57,057 bases of DNA from an uncultured Alteromonas sp. (lineage in GTDB: Bacteria > Pseudomonadota > Gammaproteobacteria > Enterobacterales > Alteromonadaceae), in the NCBI RefSeq assembly GCF_913058315.1, contig NZ_CAJXQY010000015.1, positions 1-57,057 of the forward strand, in the 5' to 3' direction. The notes under the pieces were generated by a model. The model did no database searches and was not told the DNA's origin. It saw nothing but the letters and a program-made list of their open reading frames with translations. Shown here piece by piece: positions 14,289 through 56,981 of the stretch. Within the stretch, counting starts at the first letter, position 1, and each line of letters begins with the position of its first letter. The position numbers and the translations under genes were made by a program.

Positions 14289-14365
14289 AAAAGGCTCTTT
14301 TAACAGCACTCCCGCCGAGTGCCAAGATGGGTTAGAAGTGGCAACCAGCCCGTTGTGAGCAGTTG

Positions 14366-14550
14366 CCGACGCAGCACAGGCCGGTCTCCGGGCTTTCAGT
14401 CATGCCGGGGCATGAATTCCCGCCTTCCCGATAGTCGGTGGCATAGGGAATCGTATTGAAAACAACAATACGTGATTACCGTTGCGGGGGCAGCGTAAGC
14501 TTTTCACTTACTTCCCGATTATCCTGATGAATCTTCAACAGGCACCTGAG
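14366..14550 (-). promoter_or_regulatory. Cobalamin riboswitch
   Basis: Read on the minus strand it shows the conserved elements in order: AGGTGCC (14547-14541), the GCCCCCGCAACGG core (complement of about 14480-14492), GCCACCGA (about 14444-14451) and the 3' element AGCCCGGAGACCGGCC with its CTGTGC continuation (complement of 14374-14394). These are the landmark segments of the AdoCbl riboswitch. It ends about 75 bases before the btuB start, leaving room for an expression platform, though I did not resolve whether this is a terminator or an RBS-sequestering hairpin. Confidence 0.95.
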
Positions 14551-14644
14551 CGGGCGGGATTATAACGGGACCAACACCGGATAAATACCCCTGTGGCTAA
14601 AAATGCCCGCTGATCCGCGCTGTGCCCCCATGTTTTTCAGGCCT

Positions 14645-31913: not shown

Positions 31914-34900
31914 ATGTGGTTATCAGACGTATCGGTAAAACGGCCGGTTTTTGCCTCGGTAGTTAACTTGCTGCTGATTATTTTTGGCATTGTGTCTTTT
32001 TCTATGTTGTCGCTGCGTGAGTATCCGGATATCGATCCGCCTATCGTTAGCATCAATACCAACTACCCGGGGGCGTCGGCCAATATCGTTGAAACCCGGA
32101 TTACCCAGTTGCTCGAAGATCGTATCAGTGGCATCGAGGGCATAAAAAACATTACCTCAACCAGCCGTAACGGGCGCTCCGATATCACCATCGAATTTGA
32201 ATTGTCGCGGGATATCGATGCGGCGTCTAATGATGTGCGGGAAAGAGTGAGTCGAGCGTTAAACAATCTGCCCGATCAGGCCGATCCGCCGGAGGTGTCG
32301 AAGTCCAACTCCGATGAACAGCCGGTAATGTGGTTTAACCTGCGTAGCACCAACCTCAACACCATGGAGCTAACCGATTACGCCGAACGGTATCTGGTCG
32401 ATCGCCTGTCGATTGTTAACGGCGTGGCCCGGGTGCGCATTGGTGGCGGCAGAACCTACGCCATGAAAGTGTGGCTCGACAGAACTGCCATGGCTGCCAG
32501 AGATGTCACGGTGGCCGATGTGGAGTCGGTGATCCGTTCTGAAAACGTTGAGTTACCGGCCGGTCAGGTTGAGTCGTTAAACCGTGATTTTGAGGTGCGG
32601 GTAGCGCGAAGCTTCCTGACCCCGGAAGACTTTGCGGCGCTTACCGTAGCCATTGGCGCCGACGGCTACCTGGTGCGTTTAGGTGATATCGCTAAGGTTG
32701 AGCTTACCGCGGTGGAGGATGAAACCGAGTTTCGTGGTGACGGCGTTAACATGATAGGCCTCGGTATTATCAAGCAGTCTAAAGCCAATACGCTCGAAGT
32801 CGCCCGGGCTGCGCGTGAGCAAATAGCGCGCATCGAGCAAAGTCTGCCGGATAACATCTTTATTGTGCCAAGCTATGACTCGTCGGTGTTTATCGAACAG
32901 TCTATCTCCGAGGTATACAACACGTTGGGGATTGCCATGTTGCTGGTGGTAGTGGTTATCTACTTATTTTTAGGGAATGTCAGTGCCACCCTTATCCCGG
33001 CGGTTACCGTGCCGGTTTCTCTGATTGCTGCGTTTATCGTTATGCTGGCACTGGGCTTTTCCATTAACCTGTTAACCCTGCTGGCGATGGTACTGGCCAT
33101 TGGTTTAGTTGTGGACGACGCTATCGTGGTGCTGGAAAACATTCACCGGCGTATCGAAATGGGTGAGCCTGCCATTCTGGCCGCTTATCGGGGCACCCGA
33201 GAAGTAGGGTTTGCCGTAATTGCTACCACCCTGGTGCTGATTTCGGTGTTTGTTCCGCTGGTTTTCTTAGAAGGTAATGTGGGGCGCTTATTTACTGAGT
33301 TTGCCCTGGCCATTGCCGCTGCGGTGGCTTTCTCCAGCGTAACAGCACTAACCTTATCGCCTATGCTGGGCTCCATTTTACTTAAGAAAAGTGAGCGTTC
33401 GGGGTTTGGCAGCTGGCTGGATAACAGCTTCAAAAAGCTCGAAGCCGGCTATTTTAACAGCCTGGGTAAAACCATTCACCAGCCCATTGTGATGATGCTT
33501 TTACTGGCCGTCGCCGTAGGTCTGATTTTCCAGTTACAGCAACGTATACCTGCAGAGTTTACCCCTAAGGAAGACCGCAGTAATTTCTTTATAATTATGC
33601 AGTCTCAGGAAGGCGCAAGCTTTGAGAGTAACTCCCGCAACCTCAAACAAGTTGAAGACATTGTGATGGAATACCGCGAAGCCGGTGAACTCGACCGCGT
33701 GCTGGTTCGTGCGCCGGGCTGGGGTGGCCGTGCCGGTATTGTGGTGGTGGGCGTAGTGCCCTGGGATCAAAGGGATCGCAGCTCCTTTGAGATCATGGAT
33801 GAAATCAGTGAACGGCTGAATGTTATTCCTGATGTACGTGCCTTTGCCATTATGCGGGCTGGTATCGGGGGCGGCGGCTTTAGCCGGCCGGTACAGTTTG
33901 TATTGCAGGGCGATACCTATGAAAACCTCGCTGAATGGCGCGATACGCTTATCGAAAAAGCCTCAGAAAATCCTAAACTGGTGCGTATAGACTCCGATTA
34001 TAAATCCACTTCGCCACAGCTGCTTATCGAGATTGATAGAGATCGTGCTGCCGATTTAGGCGTTTCTATCAGTGATGTGGGCCGCACTCTGGAGACCATG
34101 TTGGGTCAGCGCCGGGTATCTACCTTCCTCGACCGTGGTGAAGAATACGACGTCATCATGGAAGGGGTTGAGTCGGAATTCAGAAGCCCTAACAGCATTG
34201 ACAACCTCTACGTTCGCTCCGGTTACACCGGTAAGCTGATCCCGCTGGATAACCTGCTATCCTTCAAGGAGCAGGCAACGTCTGCCCAGCTTAACCGTTA
34301 CAACCGCATGCGCTCGGTGACCATTTCTGCCAACCTGGCGGAAGATTATTCGCTGGGAGAAGCGCTGGCCTATCTGGAAAATATTGTAGAAACCGAGCTG
34401 CCCGATTCGGTGTCGATTGATTATAAAGGCGAGTCGCAGTTGTATCAGGAGTCCGGTAATTCATTTGTGTTCGTCTTCTTACTGGCACTGTCGATTACTT
34501 ATCTCATTCTGGCCGCGCAATTTGAAAGCTGGGTGCATCCTTTGGTCATTATGATGACCGTTCCGCTGGCCCTGCTGGGGGCGTTTATCGGGCTGTATTT
34601 TGCCGGTATGACGCTCAATATCTACAGTCAGATAGGACTGGTAATGCTCATTGGTCTGGCAGCTAAAAACGGTATATTAATTGTTGAGTTTGCCAATCAG
34701 TTGCGCGATGCCGGTGAGGAGTTTGAACAGGCTCTACGCAAAGCCTCAGCCATGCGTTTACGGCCCATCGTGATGACCGGTTTTACCACTGTATTCAGTA
34801 GTATCCCGCTGGTAATAGCCAGCGGCGCCGGGGCGGAGAGTCGCATGGCTATTGGTATGGTGATCTTCGCCGGTGTGCTGGTCTCGGCTTTCTTAACTTT

Positions 34901-35015
34901 ATACATAGTGCCCACCGCCTATTACTGGATGGCTCGACACACCGGCTCACCACTTAAGCGTACGCACAAGCTGGAAGATCTGGATGAAGAAATTCCTTAT
35001 GTGAAAGGGGAGTGA
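31914..35015 (+). CDS. RND multidrug efflux permease (HAE1 family)
   Basis: A 1033-residue proton-driven pump with the 12-TM, two-large-periplasmic-loop layout. Family markers include the N-terminus SVKRPVFASVVNLLL, TM4 GLVVDDAIVVLENIHRR with the proton-relay Asp pair, and the C-terminal GLAAKNGILIVEFANQLRD with its essential Lys. Length is typical. It forms a two-gene operon with the adaptor; no TolC-like gene or local regulator is seen. The gene ends just upstream of a repeat-filled intergenic region. Confidence 0.96.
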   Translation: MWLSDVSVKRPVFASVVNLLLIIFGIVSFSMLSLREYPDIDPPIVSINTNYPGASANIVETRITQLLEDRISGIEGIKNITSTSRNGRSDITIEFELSRDIDAASNDVRERVSRALNNLPDQADPPEVSKSNSDEQPVMWFNLRSTNLNTMELTDYAERYLVDRLSIVNGVARVRIGGGRTYAMKVWLDRTAMAARDVTVADVESVIRSENVELPAGQVESLNRDFEVRVARSFLTPEDFAALTVAIGADGYLVRLGDIAKVELTAVEDETEFRGDGVNMIGLGIIKQSKANTLEVARAAREQIARIEQSLPDNIFIVPSYDSSVFIEQSISEVYNTLGIAMLLVVVVIYLFLGNVSATLIPAVTVPVSLIAAFIVMLALGFSINLLTLLAMVLAIGLVVDDAIVVLENIHRRIEMGEPAILAAYRGTREVGFAVIATTLVLISVFVPLVFLEGNVGRLFTEFALAIAAAVAFSSVTALTLSPMLGSILLKKSERSGFGSWLDNSFKKLEAGYFNSLGKTIHQPIVMMLLLAVAVGLIFQLQQRIPAEFTPKEDRSNFFIIMQSQEGASFESNSRNLKQVEDIVMEYREAGELDRVLVRAPGWGGRAGIVVVGVVPWDQRDRSSFEIMDEISERLNVIPDVRAFAIMRAGIGGGGFSRPVQFVLQGDTYENLAEWRDTLIEKASENPKLVRIDSDYKSTSPQLLIEIDRDRAADLGVSISDVGRTLETMLGQRRVSTFLDRGEEYDVIMEGVESEFRSPNSIDNLYVRSGYTGKLIPLDNLLSFKEQATSAQLNRYNRMRSVTISANLAEDYSLGEALAYLENIVETELPDSVSIDYKGESQLYQESGNSFVFVFLLALSITYLILAAQFESWVHPLVIMMTVPLALLGAFIGLYFAGMTLNIYSQIGLVMLIGLAAKNGILIVEFANQLRDAGEEFEQALRKASAMRLRPIVMTGFTTVFSSIPLVIASGAGAESRMAIGMVIFAGVLVSAFLTLYIVPTAYYWMARHTGSPLKRTHKLEDLDEEIPYVKGE

Positions 35016-35079: not shown

Positions 35080-35325
35080 ATCCCGGAAGGTCTAACGGAC
35101 CTATCCGGGATCTCCTCAAAAGTCAGACTGCCTTAAATTAGTCGAGCTATCCTATTTTCCTGTCATCCCGGAAGGTCCAACGGACCTATCCGGGATCTCC
35201 TAAAAAAGTCTGACTGCTTTAAACTAGGCGAGCTATCATATCTCTCTGTCATCCCGGAAGGTCCAACGGACCTATCCGGGATCTCCTAAAAAGTCTGACT
35301 TTCTTAAACAAGGCGAGCTATGGAT
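35080..35325. repeat. Three tandem REP-like units (about 85 bp each)
   Basis: Three 32-base palindromes at 35080-35111, 35165-35196 and 35251-35282, each with a related 50-base tail (CTCCT, A-rich, GACT, TTAAA, GCGAGCTAT), giving periods of 85 and 86. Each palindrome has an 8-bp outer stem (ATCCCGGA/TCCGGGAT), a 6-bp inner stem (AGGTCC/GGACCT; the first copy has a G-T wobble), a 3-base loop and one unpaired A on the 3' side. A GC palindrome at 35026-35041 (CCGGC-N6-GCCGG) may be a degenerate relative or the pump-operon terminator. The same element family recurs at 56801-56981. Confidence 0.92.
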
Positions 35326-35335
35326 GATTTATCAG

Positions 35336-35534
35336 CTTTTTGTCGGGGTGCCGACAGCACCCAGGGGTGGCAGTGAGGCCACCCCTGGACCCCGCTCAGT
35401 TCTACGTGTCGAAAAGCATACTGGCTGACAAAAAGGTAAAACCTAACGAGGCAGAGCGGGCGTCCTGCCCGCGCTGCCCTGGCTCGTCGTCCTTGACGAG
35501 CCTACGCTTTCCCTGATCTTTTTGTCAGCCAGTA
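35336..35534. repeat. Composite of nested hairpins bounded by CTTTTTGTC motifs
   Basis: CTTTTTGTC (35336-35344), its complement GACAAAAAG (35427-35435) and CTTTTTGTC again (35518-35526) divide the stretch in two. The right half has 17-bp perfect terminal inverted repeats (35419-35435 with 35518-35534). Hairpins inside: GGGTGC/GCACCC (35346-35362, alternative to TGTCGG/CCGACA at 35341-35356), an 11-bp perfect stem (35361-35388), a 12-bp stem with one mismatch (35450-35478, loop GTCCT) and an 8-bp perfect stem (35481-35502, loop GTCCTT). There is no open reading frame of note. It could be a small non-autonomous element or a structured RNA. Confidence 0.8.
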
Positions 35535-35726
35535 ATTCGCCACAACAGAACCACAGTAAAAGCAGGTAGTATACGAGCCAATTTGCTTTTCAAGTAGATA
35601 TTGGCTCCTCCACAGCGGTTGTTTTAGTCGTAGTCCCCCACTTTATACAGCCAGTAATTCGCCACAATAGAACCACAAAAAGCAGGTTGTTTATAATCCC
35701 GTTGCCTTTCACAGAGATACCGGCTC
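35526..35726. repeat. Degenerate direct duplication, period 122 bp
   Basis: The segment at 35526-35607 recurs at 35648-35726. The first 20 bases are identical (CAGCCAGTAATTCGCCACAA), then both read AGAACCACA, AAAAGCAGGT, TTGC, TTTCA, AGATA and GGCTC with small changes and one 3-4 base indel. Copy 1 carries an 8-bp hairpin (GAGCCAAT at 35575-35582 with ATTGGCTC at 35600-35607); next to copy 2 there is ATACCGGC/GCCGGTAT (35717-35738). The first copy overlaps the terminal repeat of the preceding composite element. Confidence 0.8.
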
Positions 35727-35773: not shown

Positions 35774-37336
35774 TCAGGCCAGCCAGTCGGATAAATTGAA
35801 ACAGATAAAAATAAGCACGGCAGTCCAGCTCAACAACACCACTACCATTCGGGTATTCAGTCCGGCATAACTGGCTTGTGGTGTGGCTTTATTGCTGGTG
35901 GGGATTAAACGGTTTACCAGGTGGCCGCTGATAACTGTGACCGCAAAGCCAATGGCATTCCACCAAAACCAGAATATGGGGTTGTCGCTAAGCCACAAAA
36001 AGGTATTACTGAATACGCCCAGTAACAGGCCGATGTTAGCTGCTTTTGCGGTAATGGTTTTACTGTGGATACCCAGTAAAAAAATTGCCAGCACCGGGCC
36101 GTAAAACACCGAGCCGATTTTATTAATGGCTTCAATGATAGTGGGGGCGATATCACCGGCGAATAAACTTAATACCAGTGTTACCAGTCCCCAGCCAATA
36201 CCGGCTGTGCGGGCAAAGCGCATATATTCATGGTCGCTGGGTTCATGGCCCTTGTAGCGACAAAAATCTTCGGTGGTCACTGCCGCCAGGCTGTTTATCG
36301 CGGAACTGAGCGAAGACATGGCCGCCGCCATAATGGCGACTACCAGCAGCCCAATCACGCCGGGTGGTAAATAATTAACAATGAAAATGGGCATCATCCA
36401 GTCGGGCTGGTCTGTTGGTATTTGCGCCTGCAGCGATGGGGTATTGAGTACCAGTGCGCCTATTACTAACCCAGTGGTGCAATAAATTACCGTGATGGGG
36501 AAGCGGCTGAGCGCGACGGTATACATCACCTTGCGCAGGTCTTTTACGCTATGAGCAGACAGCGAACGCTGAGCTTCTGACTGGTCGCAGCCATAATAAG
36601 AGGCATAAAGCACAATGCCACCAAATAACATGGGCAACAGCCCAAAATCGTTGCCGGTTAAACCCCATGAGCTGGTGTTTATGGCTTCCATGCGATCACT
36701 ATCGATGAGTGCAAGTGCAGCATCCACACCGCCTATAACATCCACAGCGACAAACAGGCAGGTGAGGGCACCGGCCAGAATAATCACCATTTGTACCGCA
36801 TCACCAAATACCACCGCTTTCATTCCCCCCACGGCAGAATAAATCAGGGTGATTACGCCAATCAACACAATGCTGTGCCATTGCTCCAGTCCCATCGTGC
36901 CTTGCAGAATCAATGATATGGCATAAATCATAATGGCGGTGGCGAAGGAGCGGTTGAGCTGAAATACAAAGCTTATCAGCAGGCGGGTGGAGCGTTCGAA
37001 ACGGCGCTCGAGGAAATCGTACACACTCACCACACCGCTTTGGTGCAAGGTGGGCAATAATCGCCATAACATGAGCAATACCGCGATGGGCAACGCCAGT
37101 TCGTAAGACAACCAAATCAACCCGCCGCCTTCGCGTAACCCAACAAAAGCAGGAGCAGAAATAAAACTGATCGCGGAGAGTTGGGTTGCCATAACCGACA
37201 GGGATAACGCCGGCCAGGGGATGGTGCGCCCGCCCAGAAAGTATTCCCTGCTATTGTGCTGGTGGCGAAATGCCAGTCCCATGGCGAGTAAACCTACGAG
37301 GTAAATCGCGATTATTGCGTAGTCAATCCAGCCCAA
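35774..37336 (-). CDS. Sodium:solute symporter family (SSS) permease
   Basis: A 520-residue SSS/SLC5-type transporter with about 13 TM helices. Family markers are the N-terminal YFLGGRTIPWPALSLSVMATQLSAISFISAPAF segment and the central MAAAMSSLSSAINSLAAVTTEDF motif around the Na+ site. It brings in a solute with Na+; the exact substrate (sugar, acid or other) cannot be assigned. A gap of about 180 bases separates it from the divergent DUF3750 gene. Confidence 0.92.
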   Translation of the reverse strand: MGWIDYAIIAIYLVGLLAMGLAFRHQHNSREYFLGGRTIPWPALSLSVMATQLSAISFISAPAFVGLREGGGLIWLSYELALPIAVLLMLWRLLPTLHQSGVVSVYDFLERRFERSTRLLISFVFQLNRSFATAIMIYAISLILQGTMGLEQWHSIVLIGVITLIYSAVGGMKAVVFGDAVQMVIILAGALTCLFVAVDVIGGVDAALALIDSDRMEAINTSSWGLTGNDFGLLPMLFGGIVLYASYYGCDQSEAQRSLSAHSVKDLRKVMYTVALSRFPITVIYCTTGLVIGALVLNTPSLQAQIPTDQPDWMMPIFIVNYLPPGVIGLLVVAIMAAAMSSLSSAINSLAAVTTEDFCRYKGHEPSDHEYMRFARTAGIGWGLVTLVLSLFAGDIAPTIIEAINKIGSVFYGPVLAIFLLGIHSKTITAKAANIGLLLGVFSNTFLWLSDNPIFWFWWNAIGFAVTVISGHLVNRLIPTSNKATPQASYAGLNTRMVVVLLSWTAVLIFICFNLSDWLA

Positions 37337-56409: not shown

Positions 56410-56778
56410 ATGGCTGAAACTATATTTGATAAGATTATTGATAAGTCTATTCCTGCAGATATTTTGTATGAAGATGACAAAGCGCTGGCCTTTAAAGACA
56501 TAAATCCCCAGGCGCCTATTCACTTTTTAGTGATCCCGAAAAAGCAAATTGCCACCATTAACGACATCACCGAAGAAGACGAAGCGCTGGTCGGTCATTT
56601 ATATACCGTCGCGGCCAAGTTGGCTGTTGAGATGGGCTTTGCCGAAGAAGGTTACCGCGCGGTAATGAACTGTAATGAGTTTGGTGGCCAAACCGTTTAC
56701 CACATTCATCTGCACGTTTTAGCCGGTAAGTTGATGGGCTGGCCTCCCTACACAGATAAACCCAAGCATTTAGAGTAA
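56410..56778 (+). CDS. hinT: HIT family protein (HinT-like)
   Basis: A 122-residue purine nucleoside phosphoramidase-type protein. The histidine triad HIHLHVL is at about 98-104, with IFDKIIDKSIPADILYEDD at the N-terminus and FKDINPQAPIHFLVIPKK. It hydrolyses AMP-N-linked compounds. GGAGAG lies eight to nine bases before the ATG. The stop codon is the start of a hairpin and of a repeat cluster. Confidence 0.95.
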   Translation: MAETIFDKIIDKSIPADILYEDDKALAFKDINPQAPIHFLVIPKKQIATINDITEEDEALVGHLYTVAAKLAVEMGFAEEGYRAVMNCNEFGGQTVYHIHLHVLAGKLMGWPPYTDKPKHLE

Positions 56779-56801
56779 CAAAAAGCTAACGCTTTTTGTT
56801 A
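56776..56801 (+). terminator. Hairpin at hinT stop codon
   Basis: An 11-bp perfect stem (TAACAAAAAGC at 56776-56786 with GCTTTTTGTTA at 56791-56801), loop TAAC, starts on the hinT stop codon. The T run lies within the stem. Its right arm (CGCTTTTTGTTA) also precedes the third REP copy, so it may belong to the repeat unit rather than be a dedicated terminator. Confidence 0.5.
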
Positions 56802-56981
56802 TCCCGGAAGCGCCAAAGGCGCTGTCCGGGATCTCCTGAGAAGGCTGACTAGTCTAAACAGTATCGCGTTCGTTATCCCGGAAGCGCCAAAGGCGCTGTC
56901 CGGGATCTCCTGAGAAGGCTGACTAATCTAAACGGTATCGCTTTTTGTTATCCCGGAAAGTACGCAGTACTTATCCGGGAT
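56801..56981. repeat. Second REP-like cluster, three copies
   Basis: Palindromes of exactly 32 bases at 56801-56832, 56875-56906 and 56950-56981 (periods 74 and 75). They have the same outer stem as the 35-kb cluster (ATCCCGGA/TCCGGGAT) but different inner stems: AGCGCC/GGCGCT in the first two and AAGTAC/GTACTT in the third. All keep a 3-base loop and one unpaired purine on the 3' side. The tail CTCCTGAGAAGGCTGACT plus TCTAAAC is related to the tail at 35 kb. The last 76 bases of the window hold nothing I recognise. Confidence 0.92.

Follow-up and report, generated by a model that had tools for sequence, protein, structure and literature searches.

A conserved and selected fold in long, bulged hairpin repeats of Alteromonas that resemble CGTC-tagged REPs

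Results

Two groups of hairpins in the window

The window, which is the whole stretch of 57,057 nucleotides analysed here, contains six copies of a 32-base hairpin, all located on the plus strand; the pattern had no match in 100 dinucleotide shuffles. The first three copies form head-to-tail units of about 85 bases each and lie between convergent genes for an RND pump (31914-35015, plus strand) and a sodium:solute symporter (35774-37336, minus strand). Copy 1 (35080-35111) has the inner stem AGGTCT/GGACCT, the loop AAC and a bulged A, is preceded by GGTT and is followed by the tail CTCCT (35112-35116, plus strand). Copies 2 (35165-35196) and 3 (35251-35282) are identical, with the inner stem AGGTCC/GGACCT, the loop AAC, a bulged A and the tag TGTC. 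The inner stem AGCGCC/GGCGCT, the loop AAA and a bulged G are shared by copy 4 (56801-56832), located directly 3' of a HIT-family gene, and copy 5 (56875-56906), preceded by CGTT, and copy 6 (56950-56981), preceded by TGTT, has the inner stem AAGTAC/GTACTT, the loop GCA and a bulged A. The 3' flank of copy 6 is closer to that of an array on another contig (C1) than to those of copies 4 and 5.

As the first-pass annotation had described, all six copies can be read as 8 bp, 6 bp, a 3-base loop, 6 bp, an unpaired purine and 8 bp, and the three copies that were folded (35165, 56801 and 56950) were predicted to form this structure whether DNA or RNA tables were used. Four copies have A as the unpaired purine and two (56801 and 56875) have G; the tag TGTC is carried by two of the six, and exactly CGTC by none. 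The inner stems had been called fully paired, which is true of five copies, whereas one pair in copy 1 is a T.G wobble. Likewise, the outer stem was thought to be invariant and is so inside the window, but elsewhere it covaries (ATACCGGA/TCCGGTAT, ATCCCCGA/TCGGGGAT and GTCCCTGA/TCAGGGAT).

A perfect hairpin, AACAAAAAGC-TAAC-GCTTTTTGTT (56777-56800, plus strand), abuts copy 4 and occupies the place of the CGTC tag; judged from its sequence, it looks like the terminator of the HIT gene. Tag-less copies on contigs C34, C181 and C220 likewise adjoin perfect hairpins. At the HIT-gene site of two compared genomes (G061 and G072), another perfect hairpin, AACTTCGCGC/GCGCGAAGTT, replaces AACAAAAAGC/GCTTTTTGTT, indicating that most of the stem has been exchanged with pairing kept.

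Abundance and genomic context

The exact hairpin pattern occurs at 35 places in the genome that contains the window (G000; other G numbers denote compared genomes), which is assembled in 254 contigs. A covariance model based on 29 real copies matched 69 places at E <= 5.8e-5. With the threshold at E <= 0.05 there were 81 rows, and 10 of the 12 weaker ones were reverse readings of copies already counted. Since many copies are located at contig ends, the true copy number is likely higher. Model matches were obtained in 9 of 60 genomes in a first draw of relatives and in 23 of 276 gammaproteobacterial genomes at the class level, in both cases including the genome itself, and at least 110 were found in G002; per-genome counts such as 110 or 148 are lower bounds, because the model searches scored at most 23, 110 or 150 candidates in each genome. 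The arrays thus represent a widespread but patchy family. Two stretches of viral contigs contained the exact pattern, and a similarity search with the array and an adjacent 240-base element gave no match in phages.

Neighbours within 200 bp were oriented head-to-tail in 122 of 161 cases, and runs comprised up to 15 copies. The commonest context was between convergent genes, which accounted for 48 of the 101 runs with frames called on both sides; the total of 136 runs also includes 27 located at edges and 8 located within frames, which were excluded from this count. At the level of single copies, 266 of 402 were counted, 84 being located inside mechanically called frames of >= 90 aa and 52 having no frame on one side (one copy may be counted twice owing to an overlap of 500 bases between the stretches L025 and L294).

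At the HIT-gene site, each of the 8 repeat-rich Alteromonas genomes compared had a first hairpin copy in the same position, with the stem AGCGCC/GGCGCT in 7 of these, a T.G in G068, and AAA, ACA or ACC as the loop. Visual inspection of about 260 bases at this site in each of 22 other relatives revealed no such array; a CGTC-like stretch is present there in G063, but without this fold.

Compensatory changes in the stems

Pairing was observed in 97.8% of the 406 cells of the 29-copy alignment. A statistical test of the proposed covariation yielded a score of 0.417, as compared with 0.106 in shuffles (sd 0.015) and 0.02-0.08 when partners were slid. Cells changed on both sides numbered 64 against 17.9 expected, a count reached in none of 500 shuffles, so that inner stems devoid of compensatory changes are not what the genome contains. 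Two weaker measures, the number of pairs with double changes (7 versus 4.4 expected) and of further pair types (17 versus 14.9), were reached in 9 and 72 of the 500 shuffles, respectively. A single origin followed by plain duplication is not the case either, since a tandem array on contig C1 displays the stepwise series C-G, T.G and T-A at one stem pair. The diversifying subfamilies that had been suggested were borne out by 60 distinct 6-base inner arms in the four Alteromonas genomes with the 6-bp form and the wider set.

Because the structure was derived from the same 29 copies, a freer test was made on public genomes by scanning for the outer stem with 13 free bases. This identified at least 116 stretches, of which 80 loci were analysed, mainly from alpha- and gammaproteobacteria as judged by their titles, with one Phycisphaerae bin and at least seven from Alteromonas or Alteromonadaceae. 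Among the matches listed, these loci contained 93 copies with 66 distinct inner stretches, in which 297 of the 330 free stem cells were Watson-Crick pairs and 43 stretches were perfect; sliding the partners by one or two bases reduced the number to 70-98 of 330 cells (21-30%). Of the 66 stretches, six from Photobacterium and Vibrio tapetis, with TCGAG...CGAGA or a similar sequence, did not fit and may have a separate fold. Eight loci from these taxa (L148, L158, L166, L172, L185, L195, L202 and L208) kept the outer stem and the 32-base length, but not the 6-bp upper stem.

Geometry and conserved bases

A structure-only scan of 772 kb of Alteromonas loci gave 158 hits for the geometry 8-6-3-1 (lower stem, upper stem, loop and bulge), as compared with 16 for no bulge, 1 for a bulge of 2 and 3 for an upper stem of 7. 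Twelve hits had a 4-base loop (8-6-4-1), and the geometry is thus not absolute. Seven of nine alternative geometries yielded 1-16 hits, and the remaining two (136 and 168 hits) are shorter or looser readings of the same elements. In the stretches examined, there were 38 hits of 8-6-3-1 in G000, 69 in G002, 13 in G023 and 16 in G034, whereas G009 yielded 112 hits of 8-5-3-1, with 8-6-3-1 not among the classes listed for it (those with >= 5 hits). The geometry is set per genome, being mainly 8+6 bp in four Alteromonas genomes and 8+5 bp in the fifth. At the class level, 24 of 31 hairpins among the matches listed were 8-6-3-1 with a purine bulge, a share that is less independent because the covariance model favours that geometry; these hits carry other outer stems, such as ATTCCGGA and ATCCCGTA.

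The tag was CGTC in 31 and TGTC in 4 of the 41 copies in the examined stretches of G000 (35 of 41 with either) and CGTC in 124 of the 133 copies in G009. The stem starts with AT in 38 of the 41 copies and in 92 of 96 of the wider set, and with GT in 125 of the 133 copies in G009. The bulge was a purine in all 134 distinct Alteromonas elements (A in 128, G in 6). A set of 200 distinct elements was assembled from all sources after removal of 15 of 215 with two or more mismatches; the loop was GNA in 133 and the loop-closing pair C-G in 181 of these. In the tail of the 29 aligned copies, bases 1 and 3 were always C, with C-N-C-C in 27 and CTCT in two. Short forms with the same CGTC tag coexist with the long form in genomes that hold it. 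In G027 there were 47 short forms, whose loop can be read as GNA closed by a C-G pair; the 92 short forms in G009 have 4-base loops, GAAA in at least 50. A single copy in G016 (L292, C74:81842-81869) has a similar bulged stem followed by a T run, as if it had been turned into a terminator.

Selection on the fold in tandem arrays

To the covariation, which agrees with the original proposal of selection on structure, can be added a comparison of adjacent units in the tandem arrays of five Alteromonas genomes, made on 87 pairs with similar flanks. Differences were observed at 659 of 3654 sites in the flanks (18%), 41 of 261 in the loop (15.7%), 32 of 950 in the inner stem (3.4%) and none of 87 in the bulge; the search pattern fixed parts of the outer stem, tag and tail, for which rates are biased low, and left the inner stem, loop and bulge free. 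In the 49 pairs with flanks >= 80% alike, the corresponding numbers were 170/2058, 23/147, 12/532 and 0/49. For flanks >= 85% alike, the p-value of the stem contrast was 7e-5, whereas the bulge contrast alone was no longer significant (p 0.11). The contrasts of the stem with the flanks and with the loop persisted under the stricter filters. Since the stem and the bulge change more slowly than the loop and the flanks, the fold is under selection. A purely parasitic element would have no need of stems that evolve so slowly once duplicated in tandem, and this counts against the interpretation as long-form CGTC-tagged REPs given below.

The 28 changed inner-stem pairs comprised 24 one-sided and 4 two-sided changes (12 and 0 in the >= 80% set), and this excess of one-sided changes is indicative of purifying selection on the helix rather than simple copying of one arm. 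The distinction matters for the possibility that there is no selection at all, and that hairpin-templated repair by template switching matches the arms and makes the compensatory changes. Matched arms with free loops are the expected product of such repair, and loop base 2 indeed changes faster than the flanks in pairs >= 90% alike (7/35 versus 75/1470), which would suit a loop that is exposed and mutable, or one swapped between subfamilies. However, repair of this kind should copy about as often as it erases, whereas two-sided changes made up only 4 of 28, and 0 of 12 in the closer pairs. Such repair would further be apt to eliminate the bulge, yet the bulge was unchanged in 87 of 87 pairs and a purine in 134 of 134 elements, and repair leaves the GNA loops and the arm length unexplained. 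We consider this explanation improbable.

Strand and nucleic acid

The selected fold could also be that of an RNA. If the hairpins act as 3'-end elements that stop transcription, or that protect or process the mRNA, they would be selected via the preceding genes. That convergent genes are the commonest context (48 of 101 runs) is consistent with such a role, as is the stability of the predicted RNA fold, which is equally possible for the three copies folded. G.T pairs are tolerated (31 versus 15 A.C), and the G016 copy with its T run could be a terminator. Yet, the transcribed strand is not preferred, with 18 runs along and 23 against co-directional genes (54 and 60 copies, respectively), and the tail of the 29 aligned copies is C-rich and lacks the T run that is a feature of intrinsic terminators. 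Neither the runs of up to 15 copies nor the position of the HIT-gene array after an apparently complete terminator is easily reconciled with a 3'-end element. Moreover, the preferred loop, GNA with a closing C-G pair, is that of a DNA mini-hairpin, GNA and GNNA loops having been described as unusually stable in DNA (PMC4686876), although loop energies were nearly all alike with DNA and RNA tables and the DNA tables give GNA loops no bonus. No Rfam family matched the hairpins at the curated score, the only such match within the window being a cobalamin riboswitch (14362-14564, minus strand); at an E-value limit of 10, the surroundings of the array gave four matches (best E 0.57), each far below its curated score. 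Taken together, we consider a role as an RNA 3'-end element doubtful.

Among distinct copies with no more than two mismatches, G.T pairs outnumbered A.C pairs by 31 to 15 (p 0.026; 34 to 19 unfiltered), as expected if one strand folds. The recent single changes displayed no such excess (10 G.T versus 8 A.C), which makes the strand argument weak, and the copies are also not independent. A hand count of runs in G009 gave no clear excess on either replication strand (26 versus 19).

These numbers also bear on the idea that the arrays are structural sites in the chromosome, such as cruciforms or clusters bound by proteins (gyrase, IHF or similar), kept for the benefit of the host. Stems that change slowly inside arrays and a HIT-gene site kept in 8 of 8 repeat-rich relatives would suit such sites, but their very patchy occurrence (9 of 60 and 23 of 276 genomes, own included) would not, and a cruciform needs both strands, in contrast to the excess of G.T over A.C among distinct copies. 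Structural sites thus seem to us an unlikely explanation. With more signs for DNA than for RNA, a single-stranded DNA form is favoured.

Search for a transposase

The first-pass annotation had pointed to an IS200/RAYT-type gene flanked by the same hairpin. We searched for the Y1_Tnp domain (PF01797) in the genome itself, in a set of 60 made up of it and its relatives, and in 22 genomes chosen among those with the repeat, and inspected seven Y1 loci; no gene flanked in this manner was found in the stretches examined. The 7-11 kb stretches around these seven Y1 genes contained no long hairpin, and a single short CGTC word was located 2.2 kb from the Y1 gene of G009. A RAYT gene flanked by the hairpin could be missed in G000 since its assembly is in 254 contigs.

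Another reading is that a resident RAYT or IS200-type Y1 transposase mobilises the hairpins today, as for GTAG REPs. The anatomy of the hairpin maps well on TnpA-REP substrates, Y1 genes were present in 18 of the 22 chosen genomes, and long Y1 frames were found in G000 (262 aa for one of its three Y1 genes) and, at >= 232 aa, in G009, G023, G034, G061, G068, G072 and G079. However, the RAYT genes of G000, G023, G034 and G050 are located between their own GGGGTCAG-type inverted repeats, and the seven inspected loci are without the long hairpin. G002, despite at least 110 repeat matches, has only short Y1 genes of the IS200 type, and in G027, G060, G076 and G145, all four of which carry the repeat, PF01797 had no match. 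Conversely, nine genomes of the genus (G008, G017, G018, G020, G024, G026, G028, G029 and G032) have a long Y1 frame but no repeat match. Present-day mobilisation by such an enzyme has a low probability in our view. The RAYT-like gene of G000 at L036:560-1445 lies between inverted repeats (GATCAAGGGGTCAG..) and forms an element of its own.

We also clustered 525 proteins encoded within 1.5 kb of the hairpins, and inspection by eye revealed no shared mobile gene among these neighbours. Of the clusters with >= 4 members, the widest looked like ordinary chromosomal genes that different species conserve, and one like a spurious frame.

A second structured repeat

A repeat of about 240 bases (35325-35570) starts 43 bases 3' of the third hairpin, and a partial copy of its end is located at 35648-35690 (bases 202-246 of the element, 91%). 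The folding z-score was -9.2, and in an alignment of 17 copies double compensatory changes were observed for 21 of the 50 predicted pairs. Inspection by eye suggested a possible pseudoknot, GGGTGC/GCACCC, changing to GGTCG/CGACC. The repeat was present in 8 of 98 genomes (own included), the same eight that are rich in 32-base hairpins, and absent from G009, which has the 30-base form of the hairpin. There was no match in plasmids and no credible match in Rfam. Possible identities for this repeat are a new structured RNA and a non-autonomous mobile element. The intergenic mosaics thus hold a second, larger structured repeat in addition to the 32-base hairpins.

Discussion

A proposed reading of the hairpin as single-stranded DNA

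The hairpins have a conserved fold that is under selection. What is maintained in the upper stem is the helix and not the sequence, and within a genome the length of this stem hardly varies. We interpret the family as long-form CGTC-tagged REPs, the selected fold of which is that of single-stranded DNA read by a trans-acting enzyme, a reading that we think has about an even chance of being correct. The element would consist of the tag, a nearly fixed 8-bp lower stem, the 3' purine, an upper stem that varies but stays paired, a loop of 3 bases and the C-rich tail, with an upper stem of 6 bp here and 5 bp in the sister species and a loop that is commonly GNA closed by C-G. The relevant form would be the tagged strand, exposed as single-stranded DNA during replication or repair. 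An enzyme acting in trans on single-stranded DNA may contact the tag, the lower stem, the bulge and the loop, with the upper stem as a spacer, and by analogy this would resemble the manner in which TnpA-REP reads GTAG REPs. Such an enzyme could have spread the copies in the past, and the present arrays would owe their growth chiefly to the head-to-tail duplication of units that are about 75-300 bases long.

More speculatively, the hairpins might be read by a widespread enzyme encoded by proteobacterial hosts, which measures the distance from the tag and the bulge to the GNA loop; this is no better than a tentative suggestion. If true, the ruler would be 5 or 6 bp long depending on the genome, explaining a fixed geometry with a free sequence, and the enzyme would be the missing mobilising factor of the CGTC REPs.

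The long form provides a sharp signature for searches, consisting of the tag, 8 bp, the purine bulge, a covarying stem of 5-6 bp and the GNA loop, and this signature predicts the bases that a factor must contact. For finding that factor, a natural contrast is offered by genomes of a single genus that have the 6-bp form, the 5-bp form or no match.

Comparison with known repeat families

At the level of abstracts and passages, the literature on bulged and triloop REPs, stem-loop families, CGTC/dRS3 repeats and RAYTs gave no description of the long bulged CGTC form, and stem words of eight to ten bases retrieved only off-subject titles among the matches listed; passages in PMC12306157 had no bearing on this form. 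The closest relatives are the CGTC-tagged REPs of Di Nocera 2013 (PMC3733652), where the families CGTC-1 to CGTC-4 are presented as lacking a dedicated transposase. The text of that study gives stems of 8-9 bp with loops of 4-5 bases, arranged in head-to-head dimers, with clusters being rare and head-to-tail dimers negligible, and mentions that bulged types may have escaped the survey. Its section on GTAG REPs already notes sub-families with alternative complementary stem residues, and compensated stems are for this reason not new as such. As judged from these descriptions, the hairpins studied here share with the CGTC REPs the unpaired CGTC or TGTC tag, the A-T pairs at the start of the stem (in this genome), the C-rich tail, the intergenic location, the presence of several stem subfamilies per genome and the lack of a transposase nearby in the stretches examined. 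They differ from CGTC-1 to CGTC-4 as described in having 8+5 or 8+6 bp, a 3' purine bulge and a loop of mostly 3 bases, and in that head-to-tail neighbours dominate.

The dRS3 repeats of Neisseria correspond to CGTC-1 in PMC3733652 and, compared by description, belong to the same superfamily and form large clusters mixed with other repeats. They differ in that CGTC-1 is described there as having an 8-bp stem and a 4-base loop.

For the GTAG REPs, BIMEs and TnpA-REP (REPtrons), passages in PMC8266576 describe a bulge that is required in the REPs of E. coli, the upper stem having a structural role only, and a first loop base G that is essential in S. maltophilia. The search model for GTAG/GTGG REPs given in PMC6006769 includes long hairpins in which a bulge of 1-3 bases connects to a second stem. 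Compared with these accounts, the Alteromonas hairpins have a CGTC tag, a single purine bulge instead of the two mismatches of E. coli and no flanking RAYT among those found, but they share the tag at the foot, the conserved lower stem, an irregularity in the stem (as in E. coli) and a preferred loop base (as in S. maltophilia). Drawn by analogy, the likeness to a TnpA-REP substrate is one of working rather than of membership.
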